DNA from: a virus
Virus record (IMG/VR): IMGVR_UViG_3300035034_002936
Location: 1 to 27,321 of that record
Length of the DNA stretch: 27,321 nt
Direction: 5' to 3' (one strand)
Shown here: positions 2,110-26,518 of the stretch, one piece after another
Layout of the letters: every line of letters begins with the position of its first letter
Position numbering within the stretch: position 1 is the stretch's first letter
Made by a program: the position numbers and the translations under genes
The notes under the pieces: generated by a model
What the model saw: only the letters and a program-made list of their open reading frames with translations
What the model was told of the DNA's origin: nothing
Database searches by the model: none

Positions 2110-2149
2110 CTATTTGAAAATAAAAATTAAAAAATGATAAGGAAAAAAA

Positions 2150-3268
2150 ATGCCATTATTTGAACTAACTGAATTAGGTGTAAAGCAAAGATTAGAAAAA
2201 GAAGTTACTACTGCAGTTGTAGAAGACTCTATTTTTAATCAGTTTATTGGAACTGGTGCTAATGCACCCATTAAAGCTCAAGATGAGACTGGAAATATTG
2301 AGGGTATGTCTACTATTAGATTACGAGGTAATTTAAGAAGTGGTGGAGTACAAGGAAACGCTGACTTTGATACAAATAGAGGAAAGCTTATTAATCTTTA
2401 TCAAAAAGTTGTATTAGATACTTTTGGTAACTCTGTTGAATCTGGTGAAAACATCAAGATTTTAAATCAAGCTAAGTTTATCAACTTTAGAGATGATGCG
2501 AAAGATGGTTTACAAGAAGGTGAAACTGACAAGTTTGACAGAATCGTGCTATCAAGAGCTAGTGATGACTGTACTTGTATTGTACCTGCTGGTCATGTTG
2601 GACAAGTTGATACTTCTTCTGTTTTAGCTACTGATTATGCAACTGTTGCTGATGTGCAAAGAGCTATCTCTATTGCTAAATCTTCTAAAAATGCTGATGG
2701 AAGTGCTAAGCCAAAAATCACTCCATACAAAACTATTCTTACAAAAGATACTCATGGTGTGTCTGTAAAAAGAAAGATTTATATCATGTTTGTAGGTGAA
2801 GCTACTGCTTTTAACTTAAAGCAAGACCCAGTTTGGGAAGAGAAGCAAAAATCTGCATCTGATGTAGGACTTAGCTCACCAATCTTTACTGGTCAATTAG
2901 GAATAATTGATGATTGTATTTTACTTGATATTGGAACTGTTTCTGCTGAGTATGCTGGTATTTATACTTCTGCTGATGAGGGATTTGATGGTCAAGACTT
3001 TTCTGCTTATGCTGGTGCTGCTGGTATTGCTACTGAAATCAATCTATTAATGGGTGCTACTGCTATGCTTTTACCTATGGATGACGGATATACATATTAT
3101 GAAGAAATGTATGACATGGATAGAAAAGCTAGAGTTGGGGTTGATAGAAACATGGCTATTTCTAAAGCTAAATTTGTTGGTAAAAAAGCAGAAGAAGTAG
3201 CTTCTCCATATCACCAAAAAGACTTTGGTGTTGTTGCTTTTGTAGCTTCTGCTTCTAAAAATCAGTAA
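2150..3268 (+). CDS. major capsid protein, N4-gp56 family
   Basis: The 372-residue protein resembles the N4-gp56/DUF4043 class of HK97-fold major capsid proteins: an N-terminal helical arm with a VVEDSIFNQFIGTG-type segment, the STIRLRGNLRSGGVQGN region, and a final segment KKAEEVASPYHQKDFGVVAF that reads as the closing P-domain strand. It should form the icosahedral head. Codon use is more T-rich and regular than in its neighbours (GCT, ACT, TCT), as often seen for highly expressed genes. AAGGA lies about seven bases before the ATG. Terminators flank it on both sides, so it is probably the dominant product of its own transcript. The family call is from recognition, without a search. Confidence 0.83.
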   Translation: MPLFELTELGVKQRLEKEVTTAVVEDSIFNQFIGTGANAPIKAQDETGNIEGMSTIRLRGNLRSGGVQGNADFDTNRGKLINLYQKVVLDTFGNSVESGENIKILNQAKFINFRDDAKDGLQEGETDKFDRIVLSRASDDCTCIVPAGHVGQVDTSSVLATDYATVADVQRAISIAKSSKNADGSAKPKITPYKTILTKDTHGVSVKRKIYIMFVGEATAFNLKQDPVWEEKQKSASDVGLSSPIFTGQLGIIDDCILLDIGTVSAEYAGIYTSADEGFDGQDFSAYAGAAGIATEINLLMGATAMLLPMDDGYTYYEEMYDMDRKARVGVDRNMAISKAKFVGKKAEEVASPYHQKDFGVVAFVASASKNQ

Positions 3269-3278
3269 CAAGTAATCC

Positions 3279-3310: not shown

Positions 3311-3330
3311 TATAAAACAAAGGTAAATAA

Positions 3331-3801: not shown

Positions 3802-3802
3802 G

Positions 3803-4408: not shown

Positions 4409-4423
4409 AAAAAGGATTTAGAT

Positions 4424-4705
4424 ATGTGGGATTGGCTAATAAAATCAGCTGGAAATGTGTGGGATAGTGTTTCTGGATGGGCTGATAAAGCGACTACTGG
4501 AGCAAACTTTGCAGAAACCTTGAAAGGTGCTGGAGCTATAGCAGATGCTTTTATGGCATATGATTCAAATAAAACAAATCAAGAAACCCTAGAACTTCAA
4601 AAGAAGCAATATGCAGATGCACAAGCATATCAAGAAAGCGAAATAAAAAGAAGAGCTAATGCACAAGCAGAATTAGACAATGCTGTTGCGTCTGTTTGGG
4701 GATAA
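4424..4705 (+). CDS. small helical protein upstream of portal (possible virion component)
   Basis: The 93-residue product begins with a Trp- and Gly-rich amphipathic segment (MWDWLIKSAGNVWDSVSGW). An Ala/Gly-rich middle and a polar Gln/Ala/Glu helix (about 50-88) follow. Short proteins like this beside portal genes of podoviruses are often minor virion or ejected proteins. AAAGGA lies about eight bases upstream. The next gene starts just after its stop. No family is recognised. Confidence 0.55.
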   Translation: MWDWLIKSAGNVWDSVSGWADKATTGANFAETLKGAGAIADAFMAYDSNKTNQETLELQKKQYADAQAYQESEIKRRANAQAELDNAVASVWG

Positions 4706-4713
4706 GGAAAAAT

Positions 4714-6567
4714 ATGTATAAAGATACTATTCAGTTTCAGTCTTGGTTAGATGAGAGTTTAGATATTCTAGACTCATCTAGAAAACTAGCAAGAAAAACT
4801 TTGGAATACAAAGAGGGTGAGCAGTTAGCGGATAGTATCAAATTTACTTTATCTTCTAGAGGACAACCTGAGCAGTGGGAAAACAATATCCAAAAGTTTG
4901 ACACTAAAATGGTAGGTTTTCAAGAGACTAGAAAAGTTCAAATAGGTATACATGGTGGTCAAAATCAAGACGACTTATCTGCTAGAATTTTAAGAGAAAC
5001 AATAAGAGCTAATCAACATGAAACTGAGTTTGATGAAGAAAAAGAGTGTTCTGATGAAGACTTAAGAATTGCTGGTTTTGCAGTTCAAGAAATAAAAGTA
5101 CAACAAAGTGATGAGCTAGACCAGTTTGGAAGAAGCCTAAAAGATGCAAAGATTATAAATATTCCATCTTCTGAGAGTTTTTTAGATCCTCATAGTAAAA
5201 AAGAAGATTACTCTGATGCAAGATTTTTCACTCAAGCTTTTTTTACAAACAAAGATGAGCTTTTAGCTTTGGGTTTTAGTGAAGAGCTTATAGGAAAACT
5301 TCATACAAATAACTATATAGATAAATCTTTGGATGAAAATACTTATCTTTATGGAGCTACAGAAGATAGATATTTACTTTGTTATACTTGGTATAAAAAG
5401 TTTGATATAAAAGAGAAAAAATATAAATATTTTTATAGCTATTGGAGTGATAGTATCATTTTAAAGCAAGAAGAATCTCCATTTAAAGACTTAATAGAAG
5501 GCTTCCCTATAATAGTACAGTTTTTAAGAAAAAAGAAAAATCGTACAAAAAATATAAAAGGTCATGCTGGAATCTACAAAGATATTATGCCTTTACAAGA
5601 TGCTATAAATAATGCAAAGTTAAGACTATATAATATGCTAGGAAATGTAAAAGTTCTAGTACAAACTGATAGTGTGGATGATATAGAGATATTCAAAAAT
5701 GAGTTTTCTTTAGATAACGCTATAGTTGAAGTGGAAAATATAGGCGGTATAAAAGAAGTAAAACAACATACTGAATATCAACAAATCATAAATATCATAA
5801 TAGATACAAGAAATCAGATGAAAGAAATCTTAGGATTTAATGATGAGCTTTTAGCTGTTGCTAATAATAGACTAAGTGGTGAAGCTATAGAGAAAAGACT
5901 TTCCACTGGTACTTTTGGCTTATCTGAGTATTTTAAAGCAAGTTCAAGACTTCAAATGAGAACTATCAAAAAGCTTATACCTATTCTTATATACTATTAT
6001 GATGCAACTAGACTTGTAAAAATAATAGAGCCTGATGATACTTTATCTTACTTCACTATGAATGAGCCTGATTTAGATGAAAATGGTTTTGTGAACTATG
6101 AAGATATAGGTGATGGTTTTGTAGAGCCTAAAATGAAAAACAAAATCACTGTAGGAAAATATGACTTAATCTATACAGAAGAAGCAAAAGAGACTACAAG
6201 TGCAAATGAAAGATTTAGATTAAATATAGAAATGCTAAAACAAATAGAAAGAAGTAATCCAGAACTAGCACTTGCTTTGACTCCTGAAATCTATGCCGAT
6301 GCAAATGCACCAATAGCTGAGAAGCTTAAAGGTTTAATTTCTCAACAACAACAAAGAAGTCCAGAAGCACAAGCAAATCCAGAAGAGCAACTAAAACTTG
6401 CAAAATTAGCAAGTGATATTAAGCTAAATGAAGCAAAAGCTTCATATCAAGGCAATAAAAACGCTGTAGATATGGTAAGAATAAATCAAGCAAATAGTGC
6501 AAATGTAAACAACAATAAAGCAAAAGAAGCTCAACTTTTAGTAAATGCAATGAAAGGAATAAGATAA
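4714..6567 (+). CDS. portal protein (podovirus, P22/SU10-like type)
   Basis: The portal forms the dodecameric ring at one capsid vertex for DNA entry and exit. The 617-residue protein shows the usual order: an N-terminal clip/wing region, the segment GIYKDIMPLQDAINNAKLRL in the middle, RLSGEAIEKRLSTGTFGLSE about two thirds along, then YDLIYTEEAKETTSANERFR. A Gln/Ala/Asn-rich helical C-terminal extension (from about residue 545) recalls the barrel of P22-type portals. The ATG at 4714 is chosen over a TTG at 4696 because AAGGA lies at a good distance and the longer form would overlap the previous gene. The capsid, adaptor and internal proteins around it support the call. Confidence 0.82.
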   Translation: MYKDTIQFQSWLDESLDILDSSRKLARKTLEYKEGEQLADSIKFTLSSRGQPEQWENNIQKFDTKMVGFQETRKVQIGIHGGQNQDDLSARILRETIRANQHETEFDEEKECSDEDLRIAGFAVQEIKVQQSDELDQFGRSLKDAKIINIPSSESFLDPHSKKEDYSDARFFTQAFFTNKDELLALGFSEELIGKLHTNNYIDKSLDENTYLYGATEDRYLLCYTWYKKFDIKEKKYKYFYSYWSDSIILKQEESPFKDLIEGFPIIVQFLRKKKNRTKNIKGHAGIYKDIMPLQDAINNAKLRLYNMLGNVKVLVQTDSVDDIEIFKNEFSLDNAIVEVENIGGIKEVKQHTEYQQIINIIIDTRNQMKEILGFNDELLAVANNRLSGEAIEKRLSTGTFGLSEYFKASSRLQMRTIKKLIPILIYYYDATRLVKIIEPDDTLSYFTMNEPDLDENGFVNYEDIGDGFVEPKMKNKITVGKYDLIYTEEAKETTSANERFRLNIEMLKQIERSNPELALALTPEIYADANAPIAEKLKGLISQQQQRSPEAQANPEEQLKLAKLASDIKLNEAKASYQGNKNAVDMVRINQANSANVNNNKAKEAQLLVNAMKGIR

Positions 6568-8192: not shown

Positions 8193-11100
8193 ATGAAAAT
8201 GCAAGTAACTAGAAGCACACTTGATTCTTTAAATGATGAACAAAGAATCAAGTTTGCAAATGATGTAAAAGAAAAAGGTTTAGAAATTGAGTTAATAGAA
8301 GAAGAAATTTCGCATGAGAAATCAACTCCTTCTGTAGAACTTCCATATAATGAACAAGTTCACTCTATGCCAATGGATGAGATAAACAAGTCTTTAGAAA
8401 CTCCAAAAGAAGAACCAAAATCTTGGCTAAATAATGCAGTAGATAAAACTCTAGGTTTTTTGATGGATAGAAGCTCGGATGCAAAAGAAATAGCTGACAA
8501 TGTAGCTCTTCCTATAAATTCTGCTTTCCAAAAATCACAAGATACTTTTATCAAGCCTTTAGTGGAAAATGATTATACAAGACCATACATAAAAGCTGTA
8601 GAAGATACTGCTAATACCTTTACTCCTTTAGGTGAGTTTGATTTTGCTAGTCAATATACTCCTGATGAACAAAGCATCATACAAAGAGCTATAGAAGCAA
8701 ATGACTTACCAATGGAAGCATATAATAAAGCAAACAAAATAGCTAAGACTGGCAATAGTTTACTTGCTGATGATGAAAAAGGAAAAGAGACTTATATAGA
8801 TAATCTTGCAAATCTTTTTATAGATGATTATGGTTTTGATAGCTTTGGTCAAGGTGACGATGGTAAGTTTTATGTAAGTAAAGATGGAAAACAAATACAA
8901 GTAAACAAAGACTTTACTAAGGAATTAATATCTGATTTATATGGTGATAAAATGGAAATTGGTGGAGCTATGCGAGCTGCATATTTAGGAAGTGAAGCTA
9001 CAAAAGGTATGGGTAAAAGAGTGCAAATCCCAGCTACTTTAATCTCTGGTGCTTTTGGAGCTATGTTTGGAAATGCTTTAGATATACTTGATTCTGCTGT
9101 TGAAACTGGAGAAAAACTAAGTGCCACTCAAATAGCTGATGAAATGCTGAAATCTGGAGTTCTAGATGTAACTGGTGGTGCTATTGGTGGTGCTGTTGTT
9201 GAAGGTGGAATCAAAGGTGTAAAAGCTTTAAAAGATGTTCCTATAGGAATAGAAAAAAGAGCTAATGCTTATAAAGAAGATATTTTAAAAGTAAATGATG
9301 CAGATGTAGCTGCTAAAGCTAGTACAGTAGATAATATATCTAAAGAGTTTGGGGCTAGTGATACTGAGCTTACCACCCTAGCTAGTTTTGACGAAACTCA
9401 AAAAACTTTATCTGATATGTTTGAAAACTCTATTGAAGCCAGAAGAGCTGTAACAGAAGATAGTGAAGTATTGACAAACAATCTTTATAATAATCTTAAT
9501 ATAAAAGAAACAAATACTGATACTATAGCTAGTAATATAGAAAAAAATGCTGGAATTATAGAAAGTGAAGTTTCTGGAATAGAAAAATACTGGAATGACT
9601 TACACGGAAATACTAGAAAAGATATAGTAGAAATAGCTGGAAATGAAAATATAAATTTAAAACCTAGTGTAGTAAATAAAATAAATCAAAATATAAACTC
9701 TTTGAAAACTGTAGAAAATGTACAAGGTAGAAACATAAGCAAAGATGCTTTAAATGAGTTTGAAAAAGACTATGACTCTATGCTTGATTTAATACAAATA
9801 AATCTAAAACAAGAAGTAGAACAAGCTGATGGAACTATAATAAAACAAGATGTAAATACATATACTCTAACTGGTATGATGGACTTACAAAAAAAGTTTA
9901 ATGACTTCTTCTATAAACATAATGATAAACTTACAAAAACTCAAAAGACTAAACTAAGTGAAATAAAAACTTCCATCTATGATGATATAGAAAATTATAT
10001 ATATAAAAAGTTTGATAAGGATTCAGTTAAAGCAAAAGAAATAACTAATAAGTGGAAAAGTGTAAATGAAGACTTTGGTACTTGGAAAAAGACTAAGGGT
10101 AGATTTAAAATCATAGATGATATTTTACAAAGTAAAGTTGATATAAATGAAGTAACTAAAGGCTTTATCTCTAAAAATGGAGATATAGATAAAGATGGTT
10201 TATCCATGCTTGGAAAAGTTGCTTATCAACTAGGGAAATCAAACCCTGATAAGCTAGATGAGTTTTATGGGTCTATTGTAAATAATATGTTAGATACTGT
10301 AAAAGTAAAAGATTTGCAGTTTGGTAAGGATGTTAGCTATATCGACTTTGAAGAGTTTAATAAAATGTATGACAAGCTAAAAGGTCAATCTTTAAATAGG
10401 ACTTTAGGAACTACAAAAAGAGGTAGAGAGATTTTAGATACTCTTGATAGTTTTAGAACACTTTCTAAAAATGAAGAGAAAATCCAAAATGCAGTAATCA
10501 AAAAACAAACTCCTTTAAGTGAAGCTGGAAGAACATCTAAAGATTCAACTAGAGACTTCTTATTTGGCATTGGATATGCTATAAGACACAGAATGTTAGG
10601 TTACTTTTCTAAAAGATTGTTTAGAGCTGATGCTTTTCATCAAGTAGTAACTGATATGTCTAAAAAAAGAAGATACACAAGCACTGACTTTTCAAATAGC
10701 ATAGATAGATTAAAGCTAAAAAATGAAAAGCTTCCAGTAAATAAAAGATATGCAAAAGAAGAGATAGACGAACTTGTGAAGATACGAACTGATATAGAAG
10801 AGTTAAAAGCTGATAGGCAAGCTGAATATAATCAAATAGAAAAAACACTTAAAAATATCAAAGATACAAAAAAGAAAGAACAAATAAAAAAAGAGTTTAT
10901 AGAAGAATCAAAAAGAAAAGCAGAAGCTTTAGCTGTAAGAGCTGAATATGAAACTCAAAGAAGTGCTGATATGGCTATGGATTATCAACTTCCTAGAACT
11001 CCTGAATCTAAACCTATAGAGCAAATAGAGTATGAAAATATCAAAGTTCAAGAGCCAGCTAAACAAAGAGTACAAAATCTATCTAATCAATTAGATAAGG

Positions 11101-12716
11101 CAAATGTAAGCCCTCAAAATTTAGAAACACAAAGACTTCAACAAAGTCCTTATTATAATGATGTGATAGAAAATGCTAGAACAACATACGCAAAAGATAC
11201 TAGATATGCAAATACTAAAGATGGAAGTGATAAATATACTCAAGAAGAATTTTTTGGTCAAGGCAACTCAAATGCTAACGGATATGTAAAGACTCCAGCT
11301 TCATATACTACTAATCCTAAGTATGGTGCTGTTTTAACTGTAAAAGATGTAGCAGACCTTGAGAATGGAAAAGTATCAGAAGATTTAATAAACAAAATAA
11401 AGCTTCAAATAGAAGAAATGCAGCAAGGTGATATCCCTCAAGCTGTAACTCAAACTCAAACGAAAATCGACATAGAACCTACTACTACAAAAGAAGCTGT
11501 AGATAGTGGTATGTCTTGGGAAGAAATGGATAAAAGAGGTATAGCACCTTTTGCTAATGGTGAAATCTTAGGGTCTGGTTTTGTAGGTGGTGCTGGAACT
11601 GGTGCTACTGGAACTGATATAAACAATGATGGTAAAGTAGATGAGCTTGATATTGCTATTGGTGCTGTTATTGGAGTAGTTGGATTAAAAGCTGCTAAGA
11701 AACTATTTCCTCAAGCTTTTAAGGATGAGAATCTAAGTGGTGAAGTTGCAGGTATGTTTGTTGGTGCTAAACCAAAAGAGTTTAATATTCCTGCTTCTGC
11801 TTATAGTAAAATAAAAGCATCTGATAAGAAATCATACTTTCCTTTAAAAAGAAAAATGCATATTGGTAATGGAAATTATATAAATGGAGTAGATAAAGAA
11901 AATCCTAATTTTTTAGTAGGGGTTGATAGGAGTGGAGCGGATTTTACTATAAACAAAAAATATCTTGAACAGTATGATGGGAGTGCCTTTAGTGATGTAG
12001 CAACTAAGAAAGTTATGAAAGAGATTGACGATAGAGAATTTGGCTTATATGCTTCATTTAGTAAAAAATTTGCAAAAAATAGCCAGAGATTTGATGATGA
12101 GTGGTATTCGGAGTCATATAAGTTGGGAGATATAGCAAAACATAGAGAGTTGTTCAATAGGTATCCAAATTTAAAAGATATGGATATTTATTTTAGAAAC
12201 TATGGTGATAGTCAAGCATCATTAAGAATAAGTGAGGGGGGTATGGATATTAGTATTAATCCTAAAAAAGCTAAAGATATAGAATCTGTTTTGCTCCACG
12301 AAATCCAGCACGCAATTCAAAGCAAAGAGGGTTGGGCAAGGGGTGGAAGTGTAGATGAATTTGAGCTTAAAGGAAGTGACAAACTAAATCAAAGCTTTAT
12401 TGCTGATGCAAACGCTCAAAGAAAACCCAAAGTAGAAGCTTTAATCAAAGAGCTTCAAGACAATAAAATAACTAAAGAAGATTTTAAAAGACTATATAGT
12501 GAAATGCCTGAAACAAAAACTATAAAAGAATGGGAAGAAAATATAGCTAATGGTAAAAACCCTTACGAAGCCTATCAAAGACTTTACGGAGAACAACAAG
12601 CAAGAGCCACAGAAGCAAGAATAAATATGACTCCTGAACAAAGGGCAAGTGAAGACTGGACTAAAACTCTTGAAAAAATAGAAGGACAATATAATAATCC
12701 TATTATTAAATATTAA
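8193..12716 (+). CDS. giant internal virion protein with C-terminal HEIQH polyvalent domain
   Basis: The 1507-residue protein combines several parts. A polar N-terminal region is followed by a Gly/Ala-rich, weakly hydrophobic segment (about 255-350, including GGAIGGAVVEGGIKG) that could insert into a membrane. A long helical body comes next (about 350-1000). An EF-hand or dockerin-like loop, DINNDGKVDELD, spans 1142-1153. The C terminus has LGDIAKHRELFNRYPNLKD and then the zincin-like motif HEIQH at 1369-1373 with EGWARGG after it, a combination known from large polyvalent protein-associated domains (LPD23-like). It should be a capsid-internal protein ejected with DNA, carrying an effector or peptidase-like domain. 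Peptidase activity is unproven. Confidence 0.75.
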   Translation: MKMQVTRSTLDSLNDEQRIKFANDVKEKGLEIELIEEEISHEKSTPSVELPYNEQVHSMPMDEINKSLETPKEEPKSWLNNAVDKTLGFLMDRSSDAKEIADNVALPINSAFQKSQDTFIKPLVENDYTRPYIKAVEDTANTFTPLGEFDFASQYTPDEQSIIQRAIEANDLPMEAYNKANKIAKTGNSLLADDEKGKETYIDNLANLFIDDYGFDSFGQGDDGKFYVSKDGKQIQVNKDFTKELISDLYGDKMEIGGAMRAAYLGSEATKGMGKRVQIPATLISGAFGAMFGNALDILDSAVETGEKLSATQIADEMLKSGVLDVTGGAIGGAVVEGGIKGVKALKDVPIGIEKRANAYKEDILKVNDADVAAKASTVDNISKEFGASDTELTTLASFDETQKTLSDMFENSIEARRAVTEDSEVLTNNLYNNLNIKETNTDTIASNIEKNAGIIESEVSGIEKYWNDLHGNTRKDIVEIAGNENINLKPSVVNKINQNINSLKTVENVQGRNISKDALNEFEKDYDSMLDLIQINLKQEVEQADGTIIKQDVNTYTLTGMMDLQKKFNDFFYKHNDKLTKTQKTKLSEIKTSIYDDIENYIYKKFDKDSVKAKEITNKWKSVNEDFGTWKKTKGRFKIIDDILQSKVDINEVTKGFISKNGDIDKDGLSMLGKVAYQLGKSNPDKLDEFYGSIVNNMLDTVKVKDLQFGKDVSYIDFEEFNKMYDKLKGQSLNRTLGTTKRGREILDTLDSFRTLSKNEEKIQNAVIKKQTPLSEAGRTSKDSTRDFLFGIGYAIRHRMLGYFSKRLFRADAFHQVVTDMSKKRRYTSTDFSNSIDRLKLKNEKLPVNKRYAKEEIDELVKIRTDIEELKADRQAEYNQIEKTLKNIKDTKKKEQIKKEFIEESKRKAEALAVRAEYETQRSADMAMDYQLPRTPESKPIEQIEYENIKVQEPAKQRVQNLSNQLDKANVSPQNLETQRLQQSPYYNDVIENARTTYAKDTRYANTKDGSDKYTQEEFFGQGNSNANGYVKTPASYTTNPKYGAVLTVKDVADLENGKVSEDLINKIKLQIEEMQQGDIPQAVTQTQTKIDIEPTTTKEAVDSGMSWEEMDKRGIAPFANGEILGSGFVGGAGTGATGTDINNDGKVDELDIAIGAVIGVVGLKAAKKLFPQAFKDENLSGEVAGMFVGAKPKEFNIPASAYSKIKASDKKSYFPLKRKMHIGNGNYINGVDKENPNFLVGVDRSGADFTINKKYLEQYDGSAFSDVATKKVMKEIDDREFGLYASFSKKFAKNSQRFDDEWYSESYKLGDIAKHRELFNRYPNLKDMDIYFRNYGDSQASLRISEGGMDISINPKKAKDIESVLLHEIQHAIQSKEGWARGGSVDEFELKGSDKLNQSFIADANAQRKPKVEALIKELQDNKITKEDFKRLYSEMPETKTIKEWEENIANGKNPYEAYQRLYGEQQARATEARINMTPEQRASEDWTKTLEKIEGQYNNPIIKY

Positions 12717-12730: not shown

Positions 12731-13396
12731 ATGGCAAAACTTTATAATGATGAAATAAAGCAAAGAGCAAAAGACTATGTACAAATACATGCCTATACTT
12801 TTGAAAAAACTAGTGAAGCTGTAAATGTACCTTTAAAAACTATAAATGGCTGGAGCAATAGAGACCCTCAAGGTAAATGGCTTAAAGGAAAATACAAAGA
12901 TAAAATAGATGATATAGCAGAAGAAATGAGAAATCAAATGCATGACCATCCTATTTGGCAAACTGTAAAAGAGAAGATGTTAGCAGAAGTTTTAACTGAG
13001 AGTAAAAACCAGACTATGCTAAGTGTTGAAGAAAAGGTCATAGCAAATAATAGAGCAGAAGCTTTAATCATGGAAGCTATGAGTATAGAAAACTTTGATT
13101 TGATGGCTTTACAAGGTGTACAACTAGCTAATAAAAAACTTATGGTTATGAACTTAGAAACTGATATGAGAAAAGTATCTATGGGTGAAATAAAAACATA
13201 CAATGAAATAGTAGAAAAAGTTAAAAATCAAATACACGGGAAAGCACCTGATACTATAATTCAAATAGCAAATCAGAATAATATGAATAATCAACTAGAC
13301 TATAGTAAACTATCTTCTGATGAACTTATGCTAGAGTTTCAAAAAATAGAACAAAAAGAAAATCTTGCAAAAGTATCAGATAATAGTATAGTCTAA
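12731..13396 (+). CDS. putative terminase small subunit
   Basis: The 221-residue protein has an N-terminal helix-turn-helix (about residues 23-44, KTSEAVNVPLKTINGWSNRD) of the kind found in many small terminase subunits, a helical middle, and the end segment LSSDELMLEFQKIEQ, also common near the C terminus of such proteins. The small subunit binds the packaging site and hands DNA to the large subunit. It is the last gene of the plus-strand operon, whereas the large terminase is on the opposite strand 4 kb away, an unusual separation. Its stop overlaps the stop of the convergent gene (13393-13396). A different DNA-binding regulator is possible. Confidence 0.55.
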   Translation: MAKLYNDEIKQRAKDYVQIHAYTFEKTSEAVNVPLKTINGWSNRDPQGKWLKGKYKDKIDDIAEEMRNQMHDHPIWQTVKEKMLAEVLTESKNQTMLSVEEKVIANNRAEALIMEAMSIENFDLMALQGVQLANKKLMVMNLETDMRKVSMGEIKTYNEIVEKVKNQIHGKAPDTIIQIANQNNMNNQLDYSKLSSDELMLEFQKIEQKENLAKVSDNSIV

Positions 13397-14715
13397 GAGT
13401 AAAACTTTCCACCAGCAAGGGCTTCATATGGACTATGAATCTCTTTTGCAAAGTTTGAAAGTGTATAGTTTGAACCTATTTGAAAGTTTATATTTGGAAC
13501 TATAGATGCATCAAAAATAGCACCACCTGCAAAGTATTCGTTGTAAATCGTACCACCAGCTAGTCTTTCGTAAATTTCTAAATTTATCATGTTGTCTATT
13601 TGTCTTGAGTAGTCTGAGATGAAGCTCATAGTCTCACTTCCTATAGCAAATTCATCTTCACCAGTTTTTATATAATTATCTAAAGAACTACCACCTCTAG
13701 ACGTATCATAGCCACCTAAACCCAGAGAGTTGTTGTTTCCTATAGAATTATTGTTTGTGTCTGGACTAACAAGCCCTAATCCTTGTGCAGTTTTTGATAT
13801 ATTATCTAGTTGATTATATGCACTTGAAAAGTTAGCAGCTACTGATACTAGCCCTGCTACTTGGAAAGTACCACTTAATTTACTTATGTTTGACAATATA
13901 GACATAGATGTAGGCACTGACATTAAAGAGTAGCCTAAAGACAAGATAGATATTCCTAAGTCAAGTTGGGATATAGTTGTTTTATTTGTAATTTCTAGAC
14001 CTATAGTATCTAAGGCATCAAGTGCTAGCTCTGTTAATAATCCTACTTCTTGGTTATTTACTCCATAATGAGTATCTGATTTCATACCTAGTGAGTTTAC
14101 ACTTGTGTGAGAGGTTAAATCACCTACAGAATTTGTAGTATAAGAATCTTTTGTGTTTCCAAACAGTCCTTTTCCTAGAACATCTGTTTGAACTCCACCA
14201 AATACATCTGCTGGACTTGTTGTTGTTAGAGTTTTATTCTCTTTATCATAGGAAGAAGTTGTGCCACCACCTTTGCTTTGAGTATCTGCAAAACTTGTTG
14301 AGGGTGATGATAGTCCTAGTCCTTTATCTGTGTAGCTAGGAGTAGTAGTTTTTGGTGTGTCAAAATATGAATCTGAAAGAGGAGTATCTACTAATCCTGA
14401 AAAATCAGAAGAAGAGTTCCCACCACCACCACCACCAATACTATTATTACCACTGTTGTGGTCTTGATTTGTTGTTCCACCATAGTTGTTTTCTGGTGAG
14501 TTGTTTTCCATCCCACCACCTCCACCACCATCACCACCACCAGTACTATTATTGGCACTATTGTGGTCTTGATTTGTTGTTCCACCGTAGTTGTTTTCTG
14601 GTGAGTTGTTTTCCATCCCACCACTACTATTGTTATCGCTCCCACCGCCACCATCACCACTTTTTAAAGTAGCAAGTGAGATAATCAAGTTCCAAAGTAA
14701 AAAGAAATCTTTCAT
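13393..14715 (-). CDS. Gly/Asn-rich repeat protein, probable virion or host-contact protein
   Basis: The protein has 440 residues. The first 17 are hydrophobic (FFLLWNLIISLATL), resembling a signal or anchor. Residues about 20-105 are a low-complexity Gly/Asn/Ser region with two copies of a 35-residue unit containing ENNSPENNYGGTTNQDHNS. A Thr/Ser-rich middle follows, then a hydrophobic helical part (about 255-310). The last 60 residues contain three AGG-aromatic units (LAGGTIY, FAGGAIF, LAGGKFY). It is last in the minus-strand late operon. Low-complexity glycine regions and signal-like ends occur in tail tip, needle and ejected proteins, but no family is recognised. Only weak ribosome binding is seen before its ATG. 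Confidence 0.6.
   Translation of the reverse strand: MKDFFLLWNLIISLATLKSGDGGGGSDNNSSGGMENNSPENNYGGTTNQDHNSANNSTGGGDGGGGGGMENNSPENNYGGTTNQDHNSGNNSIGGGGGGNSSSDFSGLVDTPLSDSYFDTPKTTTPSYTDKGLGLSSPSTSFADTQSKGGGTTSSYDKENKTLTTTSPADVFGGVQTDVLGKGLFGNTKDSYTTNSVGDLTSHTSVNSLGMKSDTHYGVNNQEVGLLTELALDALDTIGLEITNKTTISQLDLGISILSLGYSLMSVPTSMSILSNISKLSGTFQVAGLVSVAANFSSAYNQLDNISKTAQGLGLVSPDTNNNSIGNNNSLGLGGYDTSRGGSSLDNYIKTGEDEFAIGSETMSFISDYSRQIDNMINLEIYERLAGGTIYNEYFAGGAIFDASIVPNINFQIGSNYTLSNFAKEIHSPYEALAGGKFYS
14438..14624 (-). repeat. two-copy 105-base repeat inside the Gly/Asn-rich gene
   Basis: An 82-base block at 14438-14519 recurs at 14543-14624 with few mismatches, giving a period of 105 bases or 35 codons. 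The spacer between copies is made of GGT/GGA-type triplets (CCACCA on the plus strand). The repeat keeps frame and encodes the duplicated NNSPENNYGGTTNQDHNS unit. Confidence 0.85.
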
Positions 14716-15981: not shown

Positions 15982-17508
15982 TTACAATCTCCAGTTTGAT
16001 GATGAGTGTTGTTGTCTTCCTCTTGGTTTGATTTTTTTCTTTTTTTCTTTTGCTTTTTTTCCAGCTTTTATATCTGGATTTGTAACTGCTATTGCTAGAC
16101 ACTCCATACAGTCATCTTTTGCTGAGTCTTTGTTTGGGTCAAAGGATTTTAGTTCTCGTTTTAGTTGCTCTAAGCCTTTTGCACTTTTTTTAAATTTGAT
16201 TTGACTTGATATAAAGTAGGGTTCACAAGCTTCTATTATCTGGTTTTTTGTACTTCCGTTTTTTTTAGCTGATAGTTCGTAGATTCTATTTTTTAAAGGC
16301 TGTTCACCTTGGGATTTTAGTTTTGTGTTAAATCTAATAATTGCTTTTTTAAGTTCTTGTACAACTATATGACCACCACCTGCCATCTCTATATAAACTG
16401 CTGCATCTTTGTATCTATACATAGTATCAATAATATTATCTATAAACTCTTCAAACTTCCATAAGCCATAAAGCACATCATGCACTACAAATAATTCTAG
16501 GTCATCATCAGTTTTTGAAATACCAATAGGAAGTATGGCTCTATTGTCTGCTGTTTTTTTTGTACTCATGGCTGGGTCTACTATGATAGAAACTCTTTCA
16601 TCTTTTGGAATATCAACTTCTCCTATGTATGAAAAGTGTTCTTCTTTATAAAAGTCACCATCTATAGTTTCTGGCTCTTGCTGATATTGAGCTGATGCTG
16701 ATGAACCTAAAGATTTCATCTTTTTTTGAACTGCTGCATAGTCTTCATACTCTTCATATAAGACTTCGTTTGCTGCTCTTTCATATCTGAAACTTCCTAG
16801 CTCATAGATGACTGGTCTTTTTTCTAGAGCTTTTAAATTTAGGTGATAAAAGTCTTCTTCTTCTAGTAAGTACCCTGCTAGGTCATTTGGATTTAGCCTT
16901 TGCATAATGCAGCCTATAAAGTCTTTTCGTCTTGATACTAAAGAATCTGTATAGAAGTCTATGGCACTTTGTAAGGATGCGTATGAGTTTCTTTCACTAG
17001 CTTTTGTGGGGTCATCAATAAATACTCCACCATAAGGAGCGTGTTTCCCCGTAACAACTCCACCAGTACCAGTTGCAAATACTCCACCGCCTTTTACTGT
17101 TTCCCACTCACCTTTTGCATCTTGGTCTCTTGAGATTTGAATATTTGGAAAGAGTAGTTTGTAAGCTGGATGTGTCACTATAAATCTAGCTTCTTTTGAT
17201 ACTGCTGTTGATAAATCTCCACCATAAGAAGTGTAAATATTTTTTGACCTTTGTTCATGACCTATATGCCATGCTATAGCACAAGTAGTCATCATAGTTT
17301 TACCATATGAGGGTGGTATGGTAATTAGAAACTCTTTTATGTTTCCTTGATAAACTTGATGGAATAATTCTGCTATATATCCATGAAACCATGCTTCAAC
17401 AAAAGGTTTTTCATATATATTTTCTATAACATATCTTGTAAAATGGAGAATCGACTTTTTAGCCAATTCTCTTTTTATCATCTCTTTTTGAAGCTCTAGT
17501 TTCTTCAT
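15982..17508 (-). CDS. terL: terminase large subunit (ATPase and nuclease)
   Basis: The 508-residue motor packages DNA into the procapsid and cuts the concatemer. The ATPase part has a Walker A motif PPSYGKT (65-71) and Walker B VFIDDP (162-167). A later FIGCIMQRLNPNDLAG block matches the coupling region of phage terminases. The RNase H-like nuclease part has its acidic residues in order: D311 in VDPAMS, E374 in VYIEMAGGG, and D466/D467 in KDDCMEC. The C terminus is a Lys-rich tail ending in a Ser/Asn stretch. The ATG has no good Shine-Dalgarno and lies three bases after the 72-residue gene, suggesting translational coupling. Confidence 0.93.
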   Translation of the reverse strand: MKKLELQKEMIKRELAKKSILHFTRYVIENIYEKPFVEAWFHGYIAELFHQVYQGNIKEFLITIPPSYGKTMMTTCAIAWHIGHEQRSKNIYTSYGGDLSTAVSKEARFIVTHPAYKLLFPNIQISRDQDAKGEWETVKGGGVFATGTGGVVTGKHAPYGGVFIDDPTKASERNSYASLQSAIDFYTDSLVSRRKDFIGCIMQRLNPNDLAGYLLEEEDFYHLNLKALEKRPVIYELGSFRYERAANEVLYEEYEDYAAVQKKMKSLGSSASAQYQQEPETIDGDFYKEEHFSYIGEVDIPKDERVSIIVDPAMSTKKTADNRAILPIGISKTDDDLELFVVHDVLYGLWKFEEFIDNIIDTMYRYKDAAVYIEMAGGGHIVVQELKKAIIRFNTKLKSQGEQPLKNRIYELSAKKNGSTKNQIIEACEPYFISSQIKFKKSAKGLEQLKRELKSFDPNKDSAKDDCMECLAIAVTNPDIKAGKKAKEKKKKIKPRGRQQHSSSNWRL

Positions 17509-17511: not shown

Positions 17512-17730
17512 TTATTTTTTCTTGAAGCCTATACTTTCTTTATATGCTGTTGTTTCTTTCACTGCTTCTACAATAGCTGACTCTTCTTTTTCTAACTCTT
17601 TGATAGCTTTAGCAAATCTATCAATATCTTTTTTGAGTTCAAAAAACTCTTTGATGCTTCTTGCATCACTTTCTATTTGCCATCTATCTTCTTGGTCTTT
17701 ATCTGTTTCAATAAGTGTCTCTTTTGCCAT
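17512..17730 (-). CDS. 72-residue helical protein sharing a C-terminal peptide with the scaffold-like protein
   Basis: The protein is short, acidic and helical (Glu/Lys/Ile-rich, likely one coiled coil at about 27-60) and ends YKESIGFKKK. The upstream gene product ends YKDSIGFKKL, so both carry the same terminal peptide although their DNA differs at many codon positions (the Ser is AGT in one and TCT in the other). AAGGA lies upstream at a normal distance, and the large terminase starts three bases after its stop. A minor scaffold or capsid-interior cargo using the same docking peptide is an attractive reading. A very small terminase partner is an alternative. No family is recognised. Confidence 0.6.
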   Translation of the reverse strand: MAKETLIETDKDQEDRWQIESDARSIKEFFELKKDIDRFAKAIKELEKEESAIVEAVKETTAYKESIGFKKK

Positions 17731-17739
17731 ACTTTTTCC

Positions 17740-18525
17740 TTATAGTTTTTTGAAGCCAATAGAGTCTTTGTACTTCTTGTCTTCTGCTTCTTTTTTAATC
17801 TCTGATTTGTCATCAATAGATGTTTTACTTGTATTTGATGTATCTGGAATACCTGAGCCTTGTACTTGTTTTATCTTTCTTGGATTTCTTTTTAGAAATT
17901 CATCATGTACTTTCTTTAAATATTCTGGAAGATTTTCTAAAGTTGAACCTTCGTCTAAAGCTCTTTTTTCTTTTGTGTTCAATTCTTCGTTATAAAACTC
18001 AAATGCTTTTTGAAAATTGAAGTCTTTGTATTTTGCATCTTTTAAAACTATTTCAATAGCTTTTGCTGTATGAAGATTTTTTCTTGCATTATCAAGTTTG
18101 ATTTCATCTTCACTCATATCTTTTGTATTCTCTTTTAGATACTTAGCTTTTGCTTCTTCTACTTTTTCAAAGTATGCTGTTTTGTCATCTTCAAACTGTA
18201 GTTCTAAATCATCTTCTGAAAGATATTTGTTTATCTCTCTATAAAACATCTTTACATCAGGAATCTGACCTTTTGTCGTTTCTATAGTAGCTTCTAGTTT
18301 TGCTACTTCTTGAACTAGAGTATCAGTATCAAGCTTCCCGCCAGTGGATTCTTTTGCAGAAGTAAACTCTTCATCGACAATAGAATTTTCATCTTTTGTT
18401 TCATCTGTTTTTTTTACTTCTGTTTCTAGATTAGATTCTTTTGAATCAACAATACTTTTGTTTTCTTCTTCTGCTAGAGGATTTACATTCTCTTGACTTA
18501 CTGTAGTATCAGTATCTTTAGACAA
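17740..18525 (-). CDS. acidic helical protein, candidate scaffolding protein
   Basis: The 261-residue protein is strongly acidic and Ser/Thr-rich in the first 70 residues, helical through the middle (about 70-215), and has basic patches near the C terminus (FLKRNPRKIKQ and the end YKDSIGFKKL). An acidic, helical, Glu/Lys-rich body with a basic C-terminal capsid-binding element is the general shape of phage scaffolding proteins. No other scaffold candidate was found in the capsid operon. The start codon is TTG, with AAGGA about six bases upstream; the first internal Met is far inside. It is the first gene of the minus-strand late operon. The scaffold call is inference from composition. Confidence 0.5.
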   Translation of the reverse strand: MSKDTDTTVSQENVNPLAEEENKSIVDSKESNLETEVKKTDETKDENSIVDEEFTSAKESTGGKLDTDTLVQEVAKLEATIETTKGQIPDVKMFYREINKYLSEDDLELQFEDDKTAYFEKVEEAKAKYLKENTKDMSEDEIKLDNARKNLHTAKAIEIVLKDAKYKDFNFQKAFEFYNEELNTKEKRALDEGSTLENLPEYLKKVHDEFLKRNPRKIKQVQGSGIPDTSNTSKTSIDDKSEIKKEAEDKKYKDSIGFKKL

Positions 18526-18629: not shown

Positions 18630-19838
18630 ATGAATTGGAAAGCAAGCATATATAAACATCCTACATCTTCAAAAATTTACTTGGATTTGGAGTATGGTGG
18701 TGTAAGGAAACGACCATCTACTAAACTAGAAAATAATAGTGTAAATATGAAGTTTGTAGAAAAAGAACTATTGCCTACAATTAGAAAAGATATGATGGAT
18801 GGTTCTTTTGAGTTTGGGGTTAAAAAAAATACTTCTGGAATACTTGAAGTGTTTGCCAAAGAATTTTTTGAATTATATAAATCAAGACTTAGACAAAATA
18901 CAGTAAAAACAAATATTGATAACTTTTATAAAAAAGTCCTGCCTTATTTTAAAAATAAAAGGATGGAAAGTATAAAGCCCATAGAGTTAGAAACATGGCA
19001 AAATACACTTTTGAAGAAGCATAAAGAAACATCAGTCTTAAAATATAGATATATTTTTAATCAAGTTTTAGATAGTGCTTTTAAAAATGACATTATAAAA
19101 GATAATCCTTTTACAAAAGTTTCATCTCCAAAAGACAAAGACAAAGATATGAGTCTTCTTCAAATGGAAGAAACAGAAGAGGAAATAAATCCTTTTAATA
19201 AAACAGAAATAAATATTATCATGAGTGAATTCAAAGGGAAACTAAAATATTTTGTTTGCTTAATGCTTTTAACTGGCATGCGACCCTCTGAAATAATAGC
19301 CTTACAGTGGGATGATATAGATTTTACAAAAGATAGAATATCTGTTTATAAAGCTATTGTAAACGGAATTCTAGGAAAACCAAAAACTAAAACAAGCAAA
19401 AGATATGTAGATATTTTACCTACTTTAAAAATAATACTTTTAGAGTGGAAAGAAATTGCTCCTAAAAATAAAGAGAACTATGTATTTGTAAATCAAAAGA
19501 AAAAAAGATATTATGGAGTACAAGTTATAAATGAAAGTTTTCAAAACAGACTAGAAAAATATGGTATAAAAAAAAGATATTTATACCAACTAAGGCACAC
19601 TTTTGCTAGTACCTTTATTTCTAAAATGTATAAAGGTGTTAATCCTTTATGGGTAAGTAAAATGTTAGGTCATAAAGACTTGTCTATTACGCTTCAAGTC
19701 TATACAAAATTTATAAAAGAAGATGAAAATACAAGGATGGAAAATCTTATGAAAATGGCACAAATTTGGCACAGTGAAGAAGATGAATCTCTAGAGATAC
19801 CTAGTAATGGTAGCTCTAGAGTGAGGCTTTTATCATAA
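18630..19838 (+). CDS. int: tyrosine integrase (phage type)
   Basis: The 402-residue recombinase has three parts: an N-terminal arm-binding-like region (about 1-65), a SAM-like core-binding domain (about 70-165), and a catalytic domain. Catalytic residues are R218 in TGMRPSE, the beta-hairpin Lys at about 257 (TKTSKR), Y319-x-x-R322 in YQLRHTFAS (Tyr replaces the usual box II His, a known variant), H348 in LGHKD and the nucleophile Tyr358. It should integrate and excise the phage at attP/attB. The 3' end of the gene contains a TGGCACA pair matching those downstream. No Shine-Dalgarno precedes the ATG, and a promoter -10 sits five bases upstream, so the mRNA is probably leaderless. Confidence 0.92.
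   Translation: MNWKASIYKHPTSSKIYLDLEYGGVRKRPSTKLENNSVNMKFVEKELLPTIRKDMMDGSFEFGVKKNTSGILEVFAKEFFELYKSRLRQNTVKTNIDNFYKKVLPYFKNKRMESIKPIELETWQNTLLKKHKETSVLKYRYIFNQVLDSAFKNDIIKDNPFTKVSSPKDKDKDMSLLQMEETEEEINPFNKTEINIIMSEFKGKLKYFVCLMLLTGMRPSEIIALQWDDIDFTKDRISVYKAIVNGILGKPKTKTSKRYVDILPTLKIILLEWKEIAPKNKENYVFVNQKKKRYYGVQVINESFQNRLEKYGIKKRYLYQLRHTFASTFISKMYKGVNPLWVSKMLGHKDLSITLQVYTKFIKEDENTRMENLMKMAQIWHSEEDESLEIPSNGSSRVRLLS
19756..19773 (+). repeat. TGGCACA pair in the 3' end of int (candidate arm site)
   Basis: TGGCACA occurs at 19756-19762 and 19767-19773, in direct orientation, starts 11 bases apart. It is read in the int frame as the segment MAQIWHS. The same paired layout recurs twice downstream of int, so this is probably an integrase arm-type binding site embedded in the coding sequence. 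Confidence 0.6.
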
Positions 19839-23490: not shown

Positions 23491-23765
23491 AATTTAACCA
23501 TTGCCATTTCGTCTGCCATTAAATTCAGTAAAAGAATCCTCTTATCTATACATATAGGTTTTTGATTCATCTCTTCTTTTTTTATTGCTAAATCAATAAG
23601 TTTTAAATATTTTAGATGTGTTTCATTTGGTATTGTTAAATTATTTTGTCCACATATAGTCATATACCTAGAAAAAGATTTTATGCTTTGAGCTAAAGAG
23701 TCTAGATTTTCTTCTGCTTCTGGAGCAAATTGATTTGTGAGCTTTAATCCACCATCGTGTTTCAT
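23487..23765 (-). CDS. hypothetical protein downstream of parB
   Basis: The 92-residue helical protein contains EAEENLDSLAQSIKSFSRYM and a C-terminal helix with KRILLLNLMADEMAMVKL. No motif identifies a function. It starts with an ATGA overlap at the end of the ParB gene, so it is translated with the partition genes, but no partition role can be shown. Confidence 0.55.
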   Translation of the reverse strand: MKHDGGLKLTNQFAPEAEENLDSLAQSIKSFSRYMTICGQNNLTIPNETHLKYLKLIDLAIKKEEMNQKPICIDKRILLLNLMADEMAMVKL

Positions 23766-24547
23766 TCTGCTACCTTATATTTTTCTAGAAGATTTTCTAG
23801 TTCTTGTTCAAACTCATCTTTTTGAGTTTCACCTAAGTGTTTTATATCAAAGTTTACTTTGACTTTATGACCTTTTATTTTGATAGGTTCGTAGTCTAAG
23901 ATACTGGGTCGTTTTAGAATAGAGTTTATTTTTTCTTTTATTTCTGCTCTATTTAATTTTCCATGAATATAATCTTCATACAATTTCTTCTGCCAGTGTT
24001 GGTCATCGAGTTTCAAAAGCAAGTTTAGTGTTTCGGGGGATACTTTTCTTTTATTTTCTGATATGTCGTTTTTGATTTCATCTGGTAGTTTTAAAAGGCT
24101 TTTGATTTTACAGATATGTGACGCACTTTTATTTAAACTTTCTGCTAGTTCTTTTGCATCTTTGAAGATGTTGTGTTCTAGTGCATAAGTATATGAAATT
24201 GCTAGTTCTATATCTGTGAGGTTTTCTCTTTCCTCATTTTCTACTAAAGCTAGTGTATAAAGCTCTTCTATTGTAGTTTCTATTCTTGTGTACTTAATCA
24301 TAGTTTTATTTAAGTGCTTATGAGCGTAAAATCTTCTATGACCACCTACTATAATATTTTTTTGGTTTATTATTATTGGTTGAAGTTGCCCATGCTGTAA
24401 AATGCTTTGAGCTAAATCATCTATATCTGTATCTCTTAGTCTTGGCTGGTATGGATTTGGACTAAGTAAGGATGTATCTATGGTCGTGGATTCTTCACTA
24501 CTTGGAATTTCTATATCTTCTACTGTGTCTAAGGAGTCGTAGTTCAT
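23762..24547 (-). CDS. parB: ParB-family partition protein
   Basis: The 261-residue protein has the ParB/Srx domain with the NPYQPR box (31-36), GGHRR (68-72, the CTP-binding arginine patch) and ENEERENL (103-110, matching the ENxQRxDL box). A helix-turn-helix follows at about 128-150 (KELAESLNKSASHICKI). The C-terminal part, rich in Lys/Glu, should dimerise. ParB loads on parS sites and works with ParA to segregate low-copy replicons. It lies two genes after parA, with four-base overlaps on both sides. A regulator of the Noc/KorB/RepB kind is a less likely alternative. No parS was identified. Confidence 0.87.
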   Translation of the reverse strand: MNYDSLDTVEDIEIPSSEESTTIDTSLLSPNPYQPRLRDTDIDDLAQSILQHGQLQPIIINQKNIIVGGHRRFYAHKHLNKTMIKYTRIETTIEELYTLALVENEERENLTDIELAISYTYALEHNIFKDAKELAESLNKSASHICKIKSLLKLPDEIKNDISENKRKVSPETLNLLLKLDDQHWQKKLYEDYIHGKLNRAEIKEKINSILKRPSILDYEPIKIKGHKVKVNFDIKHLGETQKDEFEQELENLLEKYKVAE

Positions 24548-24855
24548 TTTAGCCCCTTGGCTTGTTTTTTTTCCTCATCGTTTATTAGTATTTTTTGTTT
24601 TACTTGAAAACTCAACTCATTAAAATTATCCATTATTCTCTTTTTCATGTCTTCTATTATTACTTCTGTATCTTTGTCTTTCATATGGAGAAGAGGGTAT
24701 TTATCTGATCTACGAGATAAGCTTTCATATCTGTAATCATCCACTTTATTTACAGTATTATCAGCCATATGTAAAAAAGGATAATTTCCTATTTTAATTT
24801 GATTATTTTTTAATGCTTGAGTTAAAGACTCTATTTTTAAATCTTTGTTTTTCAT
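24544..24855 (-). CDS. ORF between parA and parB with repeated YPxLHMxD motif
   Basis: The 103-residue protein contains YPFLHMAD (25-32) and YPLLHMKD (53-60), two copies of one motif 28 residues apart encoded with different codons. A Lys/Glu-rich helix follows to the C terminus. It overlaps parA and parB by four bases each, so all three should be made together. A short linear motif present twice suggests a bivalent binder, perhaps a centromere or ParA adaptor. No family is recognised; the partition role is inferred from position. Confidence 0.6.
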   Translation of the reverse strand: MKNKDLKIESLTQALKNNQIKIGNYPFLHMADNTVNKVDDYRYESLSRRSDKYPLLHMKDKDTEVIIEDMKKRIMDNFNELSFQVKQKILINDEEKKQAKGLK

Positions 24856-25508
24856 TTTAATATCTCCTTTACAAAAGTTTCCAGCTCTTCTTGAGCTTTG
24901 ATTAAATTTTTGTTATACAGTTTGTTTTTTGTAGTTTTTAGTTCTGCTACACTTAGTCCTTTTTGTAAGCTTGTTTTATACAAGGCTCTGTTTCTTAATC
25001 CTGATTTCATAATCTTCATATTTGGATATTTTTGTAATTGCTTTGTCATAGTTGAAAAGTCTTTTGCTCTTGTGTGTATATTGCAAAAAGTAGCGTGAAC
25101 TTCTGGGTTACTCAGTTTCTTTAGAACTGATTTAAACCTTGTGAAACCTACTATTTCAGTAACTGCATCGTGAGATATGGGTGTTATGATTTTATCTGCT
25201 AATTTTATAGCTTCTTGAGTGATAATATCCATATTTCCACCCGTATCTATAATGATGTAGTCGTATTTTTCTTTTGCTTTTCTGATAAAATCTATTAAGA
25301 TTTGAAAAGATAGAATAAACTCTATGTTTAATTTATCTTCATTTCTTATGTGATTGTTGATAGTAGATATTGTTCTATTTGCAATATCTGTATCTATGAC
25401 TAGATAGTTGTAGCCTTTTTTGTGCAAATATCCTGCTGCCTGGTAGGTCGTTGTACTTTTTCCAACTCCGCCTTTAGAGTGTGTAATTACTATGCTTTTA
25501 GCTTTCAT
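24852..25508 (-). CDS. parA: ParA-family partition ATPase
   Basis: The 218-residue protein has the deviant Walker A motif SKGGVGKSTT (11-20, with both signature lysines at 12 and 17), the VIDTD motif (37-41) and Walker B YIIIDTGG (83-90). It lacks an N-terminal DNA-binding extension, so it is the short (type Ib-like) form. ParA binds DNA as an ATP dimer and is stimulated by ParB to move or position replicons. The ATG at 25508 is preferred to the in-frame ATG at 25529 because it forms an ATGA overlap with the upstream stop and has GAGG just before it, though spacing is short. Confidence 0.9.
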   Translation of the reverse strand: MKAKSIVITHSKGGVGKSTTTYQAAGYLHKKGYNYLVIDTDIANRTISTINNHIRNEDKLNIEFILSFQILIDFIRKAKEKYDYIIIDTGGNMDIITQEAIKLADKIITPISHDAVTEIVGFTRFKSVLKKLSNPEVHATFCNIHTRAKDFSTMTKQLQKYPNMKIMKSGLRNRALYKTSLQKGLSVAELKTTKNKLYNKNLIKAQEELETFVKEILK

Positions 25509-25852
25509 TTTGCCTCTTTTTTCTTCCATTTATCGCACCATTCTTTAGCTACTCTTAAAACTTCTTTTTTATTAGATAAATTTTCTAAGGCTTCTGTTTT
25601 CCCTACGATTTCATAATTTATAATCTTAAATAGTTCTTTAAACTTTACTTCTAAAGGTACGTCCAATTCGCTTAAAGAACTATCAACTACATACATCTGA
25701 ATAGGCTGAAGATGATACATAACTGTAAATTGTATATGTCCTATGGACTTAATTTGAAAATCATCTCTAGCTTTTATATATTTTTCAAAAGCTTTGTCTG
25801 CTAATTCTTCTAGTTTTTGCATCTTTGCCATTTTCTCTTGTATTAGTTTCAT
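25505..25852 (-). CDS. hypothetical protein upstream of parA
   Basis: The 115-residue protein begins with a Lys/Glu helix, has a beta-like middle (HIQFTVMYHLQPIQMYVV) and ends in a basic Trp-containing helix (VAKEWCDKWKKKEAK). AAAGGA lies five bases before the ATG. It is coupled by four-base overlap to a 25-residue ORF upstream and to parA downstream, so it is a fixed member of the partition cluster, but no family is recognised. Confidence 0.55.
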   Translation of the reverse strand: MKLIQEKMAKMQKLEELADKAFEKYIKARDDFQIKSIGHIQFTVMYHLQPIQMYVVDSSLSELDVPLEVKFKELFKIINYEIVGKTEALENLSNKKEVLRVAKEWCDKWKKKEAK

Positions 25853-25930: not shown

Positions 25931-26518
25931 TTACCTCACTAAACTATTTTGAATATCTATATCTGTTGCTTCTACATACTTTGAGGTCGTTGCGTAATTT
26001 CTGTGACCTATGAATTTTTGCACTATTTCTGGATTTACTGATTCGTCTATTATCATTTCTGTTATAATTCCCCTTCTAAAAGAATGTGAACCATAGTCTT
26101 TGGAGTTTAAAGCTTTTTGCAAATATAAATTTATACTGGTCGTTAGTGATGTAGTATTCACTTCTTTCGTTTTGTCGTTCCATGCTCTTATACAAAAACC
26201 ATCTAAATGGACTAAAGAGTCTTGAAAAACTTTTTCTATATTTGCTGCTGCTTCTTTGCTAAAAAATACAGTTCTGAAGCCTTGACCTTTAAATCTTGCT
26301 GTTTTACTTGTTAAGACTTTTGTTTTTCTTGTAGTTATAATGTCGTGGATATTTTCGCCTTTTAACTTACACGCTTCGTTGATTCTAGCTCCTGTGTAGT
26401 AAAGAAAAGTGAATATTTTCTTATACTTATCTAAAGTTTGAGGTCTTGTCATTGTGTCGTTGCTTATATAATTTAATAGCTGCTTGTATTCACTTTGTTT
26501 TATTGCTCTTTTTGCCAT
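25931..26518 (-). CDS. catalytic-domain-only tyrosine recombinase (Xer/FimB-like)
   Basis: The 195-residue protein contains all expected active-site residues: R45 in TGARINE, Lys at about 72 (TSKTARFKG), H145-x-x-R148 in SHSFRRG, H172 in IGHRNYATT and the nucleophile Tyr181. It lacks the N-terminal core-binding domain, as in FimB/FimE-type recombinases of about 200 residues. Next to ParA/ParB it may resolve multimers of an extrachromosomal form or invert a segment. A role as integration partner of int is less likely. AAAGG lies upstream. Confidence 0.85.
   Translation of the reverse strand: MAKRAIKQSEYKQLLNYISNDTMTRPQTLDKYKKIFTFLYYTGARINEACKLKGENIHDIITTRKTKVLTSKTARFKGQGFRTVFFSKEAAANIEKVFQDSLVHLDGFCIRAWNDKTKEVNTTSLTTSINLYLQKALNSKDYGSHSFRRGIITEMIIDESVNPEIVQKFIGHRNYATTSKYVEATDIDIQNSLVR

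Follow-up and report, generated by a model that had tools for sequence, protein, structure and literature searches.

A probable phage scaffold and the small protein encoded beside it end in the same peptide, a candidate docking tag for the capsid

To our knowledge, the way in which small internal proteins are chosen for entry into the phage head is understood in very few phages. In encapsulins, cargo is loaded by means of a C-terminal peptide that docks inside an HK97-type shell. The closest described precedent is that of phage 80alpha and the satellite SaPI1, where the scaffold of the phage and the 72-residue CpmB of the satellite both terminate in an amphipathic helix and, after it, a short hook, RIIK; the hook lies in a cleft of the capsid protein, and mutations in it abolish function (PMC5644958). 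Rcm of SaPIpT1028, a related satellite case, has also been proposed to compete with the scaffold of its helper (PMC12409344). In the titles, abstracts and passages of the open-access literature that were searched, no description was found of scaffold tails common to a phage's own virion proteins.

The DNA analysed here, referred to as the window, is the whole of IMG/VR virus record IMGVR_UViG_3300035034_002936 (27,321 bases, 31% G+C). Three consecutive genes on its minus strand encode a 261-aa protein (17740..18525, read from 18525 to 17740), a 72-aa protein (17512..17730, read from 17730 to 17512) and, next in the operon, the large terminase subunit TerL (15982..17508; phrog_38, E 1e-70). On the plus strand are the genes of the major capsid protein, which is the putative docking partner (2150..3268; PF13252, Phage_capsid_3, and phrog_334), of a P22-like portal protein, the rival candidate for that role (4696..6567; PF16510, E 3e-73), and of a probable small terminase subunit (12731..13396; hhalign probability 98.5 to a family with Helicobacter prophage members annotated as terminase). 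The capsid protein also matches the KHP40 and KHP30 capsid structures 7f2p and 7dn2 (E 7e-24).

Some other features of the window are recorded here in their own right. A ParA-like ATPase (24852-25529), a ParB-like protein (23762-24547) and two tyrosine recombinases (25931-26518 and 18630-19838) are encoded in the one 27-kb record; the phage may be maintained as a plasmid, or may have the choice of a plasmid and an integrated state. A 440-aa protein (13393-14715) contains near-identical Gly/Asn-rich repeats (GGGMENNSPENNYGGTTNQDHNSGNNS) and has no family match. The 1507-aa protein at 8193-12716 has no convincing family; LLHEIQHAIQ, near its C-terminus, resembles a zinc metallopeptidase site and may be one.

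The preliminary description of this DNA reported that two neighbouring proteins end in the same peptide, and this is confirmed. The 261-aa protein ends in YKDSIGFKKL (codons 17772-17743) and the 72-aa protein in YKESIGFKKK (codons 17544-17515), in each case directly before the stop codon; the ends of the two minus-strand ORFs read KKYKDSIGFKKL and TAYKESIGFKKK. When the tails of all genes in the window were compared all against all (703 pairs), this pair scored 44 and the runner-up 24, and a score of 36 was reached by none of 100,000 shuffled tail pairs. With the tail of the 261-aa protein as query, 300 shufflings of the other window tails never equalled the score. No further ORF tail closely resembling the peptide was found in the window and two metagenomic relatives. 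In the control phages 80alpha, P22 and T7 the same comparison found the scaffold tail to be shared with no gene of the same phage, so such pairs are not a routine outcome of the method.

It had also been proposed that the peptide is conserved rather than the DNA. The serine codons are indeed TCT and AGT, but third positions differ in four of the nine shared codons, and not in most of them as was claimed. Over these codons 21 of 27 nucleotides are identical, the differences being the four third positions and two bases of the serine codon. The conclusion nevertheless stands, because relatives retain the peptide with quite different DNA, as in the Campylobacteria genome G396 (GAGTATCTTAAAGCGTTGGGAGTGCGC versus GAGTATCTAAAAACGCTCGGCGTTAAA). 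An hhalign comparison of the small-protein family with the 261-aa family matches just the last 17 residues (55-71 to 244-260 in window numbering, E 1e-4), and the small-protein family profile on its own finds the C-terminus of the larger protein in the record of one relative, L006 (E 0.001). Since the match is confined to the C-terminus, two otherwise unrelated proteins share one terminal element.

The 261-aa protein is very probably the scaffold, as judged by homology and position. Its family matches the Helicobacter phage proteins whose genes immediately precede that of the capsid protein (profile-profile hhalign probability 97.1, E 7e-11), which supports the earlier description of it as scaffold-like. 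In three Campylobacteria genomes (G396, G351 and G349), the genes of its homologues come immediately ahead of the capsid gene or have one gene in between; in the window its gene precedes those of the 72-aa protein and TerL. The protein has a pI of 4.8, no Cys or Trp and an acidic, disordered N-terminus, and its AF2 model consists of a helical core (57-213), a linker, a helix (237-255) and the C-terminal tail. A gene position and homology before the capsid gene, with a mostly alpha-helical, charged protein that is disordered at its ends, are what is expected of a scaffold. The tails of the other scaffolds of the group are related, with the core [YF]-x-x-x-[IVL]-G. Sequence searches of the PDB gave no match for this protein, and a single-sequence search found no close relatives of it in viral contigs or annotated phages.

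The 72-aa protein belongs to a family of five members, in which W17, E20, D22, R24, R38, K44 and, in the tail, G68 are invariant. Its AF2 model has two helices, 5-34 and 36-66, with a mean pLDDT of 80. Both window proteins are therefore modelled with a terminal helix (36-66 and 237-255, respectively) that is followed by a six-residue tail, for which the pLDDT is about 50 or less. The small protein gave sub-threshold matches only against Pfam and PHROGs, noise only in a sequence search of the PDB and no match among annotated phages, and Foldseek found no significant match in the PDB for the model of either protein. As a small terminase subunit it has no family match above noise, and since a TerS-like gene is found elsewhere in the window (12731-13396) it need not be one. 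Like CpmB, it is small and alpha-helical and has the C-terminal element of a scaffold. It is not regarded as a CpmB homologue, its tail being SIGFKK with no RIIK and its family profile retrieving no CpmB chain from the solved structures at E<=1. Nor is its gene regarded as satellite-encoded in the manner of cpmB, since it adjoins the phage's own scaffold gene in five phages.

These five phages are the window and four relatives that have both genes: L002 (TerL 71% identical), L006 (TerL 50%), L239 (capsid 56%) and the more remote G396; the first three relatives span about 50-73% in TerL or capsid identity. G396, together with G351 and G349, came from a search of 397 Campylobacteria genomes with the capsid profile. 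Alignment-based TerL searches of genome contigs and of the 397 genomes found distant TerLs only, and a single-sequence search of genome contigs with the window TerL found no match. In the order L002, L006, L239 and G396, the scaffold/small-protein tails are YRNSVGFRKL/HKESIGLAKK, YMESIGFRKL/YLENIGFKKA, YMESIGFRKM/YLEEIGFKKK and DEYLKALGVR/DEYLKTLGVK. The preliminary description would have been contradicted by homologues in which one protein alone keeps the peptide; all five phages with the two genes keep it in both. The tails also co-vary between the two genes, as that description had suggested checking (5/120 in an exact permutation over the five window-type phages, with relatedness uncorrected), and co-variation is not significant with the first three window-type phages alone (p=0.66).

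The small gene adjoins the scaffold gene in all five phages, except that one gene lies between them in L002. This is an unrelated DUF3307 gene (1168-1536), between the scaffold gene and that of a 70-aa protein, and both tails are kept; it is possibly an insertion into the head operon. In four of the five the small gene is between the scaffold and TerL genes. The order in G396 is scaffold, small protein, capsid, with TerL on another contig. In the same genome (L265, 9340-9600) a direct repeat of the junction between the scaffold end and the small-protein start (GVR, stop, MPEILIIDG) precedes the intact small gene. It looks as if the start of the small gene has been duplicated, and it could be an assembly artefact. 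In G349 and G351 a scaffold with a related tail is present and the 72-aa gene was not seen, so that not every phage with such a scaffold has the small protein. G351 has a 177-aa protein ending in DKYLATIGVK, compared with DYLKSIGIGR in the scaffold, a likeness matched by 2 of 300 shufflings.

A similar arrangement is found in Helicobacter phages, where the scaffold tail was set against the tails of all the other genes of its phage, with the H. pullorum and L008 records excluded because the wrong gene had been taken as scaffold there. Of all genes in the record, it is the scaffold whose tail has the best match to another tail in KHP30, KHP40, HPy1R, the H. acinonychis and H. himalayensis phages and two H. 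canis phages. The scaffold ranks third in the H. equorum phage. The phages of H. cetorum, H. heilmannii and H. ailurogastricus have a weak match or a loose pattern only, and no partner was found in the H. ganmani and MIT 11-5569 phages. Each lineage has its own letters, and within a phage the two tails agree (IMTRY/IMTRF, LPTERY/LPTERY, LPTNRF/LPTNRE). Examples are NENIMTRY/NADIMTRF in KHP40, LLPTERY/QLPTERY and DLPTQRY/ELPTQRM in the H. canis phages, ALPTNRF/ALPTNRE in the H. himalayensis phage, with ELPTQRM on a third protein, and NLPMTRQ/TLPMVRQ in the H. equorum phage, with TLPTMRV on a third. In ten phages the partner was chosen by type and position, as a Gly-rich/coiled-coil protein whose gene mostly lies close to that of the portal. 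All ten partners end in x[PVILM][MT]xR, that Arg and the first Met being the only invariant columns of the alignment. A scaffold tail resembles the partner tail of its own phage more than those of the other phages in this set (p=0.0037 by permutation, with relatedness uncorrected).

Published mass spectrometry of HPy1R particles detected both gp18, weakly, with 3 peptides, and gp21, with 6 peptides and 44% coverage (PMC9319048, Table 2). These two are the tail-sharing pair of that phage and gp18 is the homologue of the 261-aa scaffold. The detection of gp21 makes the partner a particle protein. A third HPy1R protein with a similar end, gp31 (ANPMFRL), is absent from the same table.

Proteins of a third Helicobacter kind, with tails of the PMxR type, are encoded at L213 26087-26620, L214 18812-19447, L220 14328-14912 and L229 26829-27392; many begin like MAYFESITAGRGGL, and the kind is absent from the published list of HPy1R particle proteins. 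In phiHP33 (L223, 18180-18638) the gene of the otherwise tag-bearing virion protein has a different end beside an insertion of a two-ORF transposase, so that the tag is missing. The H. cetorum phage (L213, 17931-20350) has short ORFs with near-identical ends, TCAYIFKGF, that are probably repeats. In the window the portal gene is preceded by that of a 93-aa protein (4424..4705, plus strand), which resembles the tag-bearing Helicobacter partner in position and make-up, with a weak profile match (probability 24), and which ends in SVWG without the tag. Window-type proteins encoded before the portal end at or near [SN]VWG in the window (4424-4705), L006 (9731-9979), L231 (13041-13367) and L239 (4370-4588), an end that is possibly a second C-terminal docking signal.

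The preliminary description took a shared terminus to suggest one docking partner, and the retention of the peptide in both proteins across five phages is consistent with this. We propose, with a probability of roughly 0.62, that the ending common to the two proteins acts as a docking tag: the scaffold would use it to bind the inner surface of the capsid, and the 72-aa protein would have copied it as a co-assembling mini-scaffold or core protein. The scaffold would end in a helix and a short hook, YKDS-IGFKKL, that holds it to its binding site during procapsid assembly, and this site would most likely be on the inward side of the major capsid protein. The two-helix hairpin of the 72-aa protein, with the same helix and hook, would bind the same site. 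It may co-assemble as a minor second scaffold, tuning or completing the shell, or it may stay inside as a core protein. In the Helicobacter phages the same device, in other letters, would be carried by a small virion protein, the gene of which is mostly close to that of the portal. The capsid as partner, the binding and the mini-scaffold role are inferred, with 80alpha and CpmB as the precedent.

A minor scaffold or a capsid-targeted cargo were the two roles first suggested for the 72-aa protein, and they are the right pair of alternatives. Cargo is the main rival: the protein would belong inside the head or be ejected from it, would borrow the scaffold tail for packaging and would act after leaving the virion. 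This seems likely for the Helicobacter partner, which would use the hook for entry. In favour of cargo, the tag-bearing Helicobacter protein is a Gly-rich/coiled-coil component of the virion with its gene mostly close to that of the portal, and gp21 is detected in HPy1R particles at 44% coverage. There are parallels in the ejection proteins of P22, which enter procapsids only with scaffold (PMC8402733), and in the internal proteins of T4, which have a common terminal capsid targeting sequence (PMC9026906). For the 72-aa protein we consider cargo unlikely, as its gene adjoins that of the scaffold in every one of the five phages (with one gene between them in L002), it has no Gly-rich or membrane-like stretch, and the window's own pre-portal protein of 93 aa has another conserved motif, SVWG, at its end in place of the tag.

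Docking of the tag to the portal, to the terminase or to the core of the scaffold itself, bringing for example packaging proteins to the portal vertex, would agree with the location of the small gene between the scaffold and TerL genes in four of the five phages; the gene order of G396, with TerL on another contig, and the known precedent of 80alpha and CpmB, which bind capsid, make it improbable. Scaffolds have to leave or be destroyed, and a short C-terminal signal for degradation or processing could clear scaffold-type proteins after assembly. This is very improbable, as the tail-sharing gp18 and gp21 of HPy1R are present in particles and the letters vary strongly by lineage (IMTRY, LPTERY, SIGFKK, ALGVR), which would not be expected of a signal for a host protease. 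Chance, or a recent DNA duplication that took in a gene end and the stretch leading up to the next start, is rejected even though each tail lies right up against the gene that follows and the two have the 8-nt stretch GGCTTCAA in common, since the score was unreached in 100,000 shuffled pairs and the relatives already refute it, with the peptide kept in both genes of five phages by divergent DNA and serine encoded as TCT and AGT.

If the tag is a docking signal for the capsid, it can be read from the end of the scaffold gene, so that internal or co-scaffolding proteins would become predictable from sequence alone, and it would offer an easy way to load phage shells with foreign proteins. A wider reading, tentative and with the odds somewhat against it, is that the Campylobacterota phages have a changing C-terminal 'zip code' that is set by the scaffold, that proteins bound for the head carry copies of its current version which follow its changes, and that the 72-aa protein is the phage's own counterpart of CpmB.

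Encapsulin cargo peptides, to which the tag was initially likened, are also C-terminal and the tag is likewise proposed to dock inside a shell, of HK97 type in their case. The analogy holds for the C-terminal peptide and is otherwise loose: the shell matches PF13252 and the KHP30 and KHP40 phage capsids, which argues against membership of that class, the tag is common to the scaffold, and CpmB with the 80alpha scaffold is a much closer precedent. In T4 a short terminal peptide of different head-interior proteins similarly directs entry into the prohead (PMC9026906), but that sequence is N-terminal and is cut off in maturation, whereas the window tag is C-terminal, is common to the scaffold itself and has no known cleavage; it is therefore not placed in the T4 class. 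P22 has a similar portal type, and its internal ejection proteins gp7, gp16 and gp20 enter the procapsid with the help of the scaffold gp8 (PMC8402733); the tail of gp8, however, is common to no other P22 protein, and N-terminal parts of gp7 and gp20 are held responsible.

KHP30, KHP40 and HPy1R have a homologous scaffold, a homologous capsid and a scaffold tail that recurs on an unrelated small protein. They differ in the letters, IMTR[YF] or LPTxR, and in the partner, a Gly-rich/coiled-coil virion protein encoded before the portal rather than a two-helix protein of 72 aa. In 80alpha, as in the window, a scaffold (gp46) and a small alpha-helical protein of 72 residues (CpmB), otherwise different in sequence, have a common C-terminal helix and hook. 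The hook is RIIK there and SIGFKK here; capsid binding and size switching are known there, whereas the window pair is known from sequences and models; and the cpmB gene belongs to a satellite that hijacks the phage, whereas the two genes in the window are neighbours and the phage's own. The tag pair thus offers a phage-encoded parallel to CpmB. If the zip-code reading is true, it suggests that satellite hijackers of the capsid could arise by copying an arrangement that phages already have.
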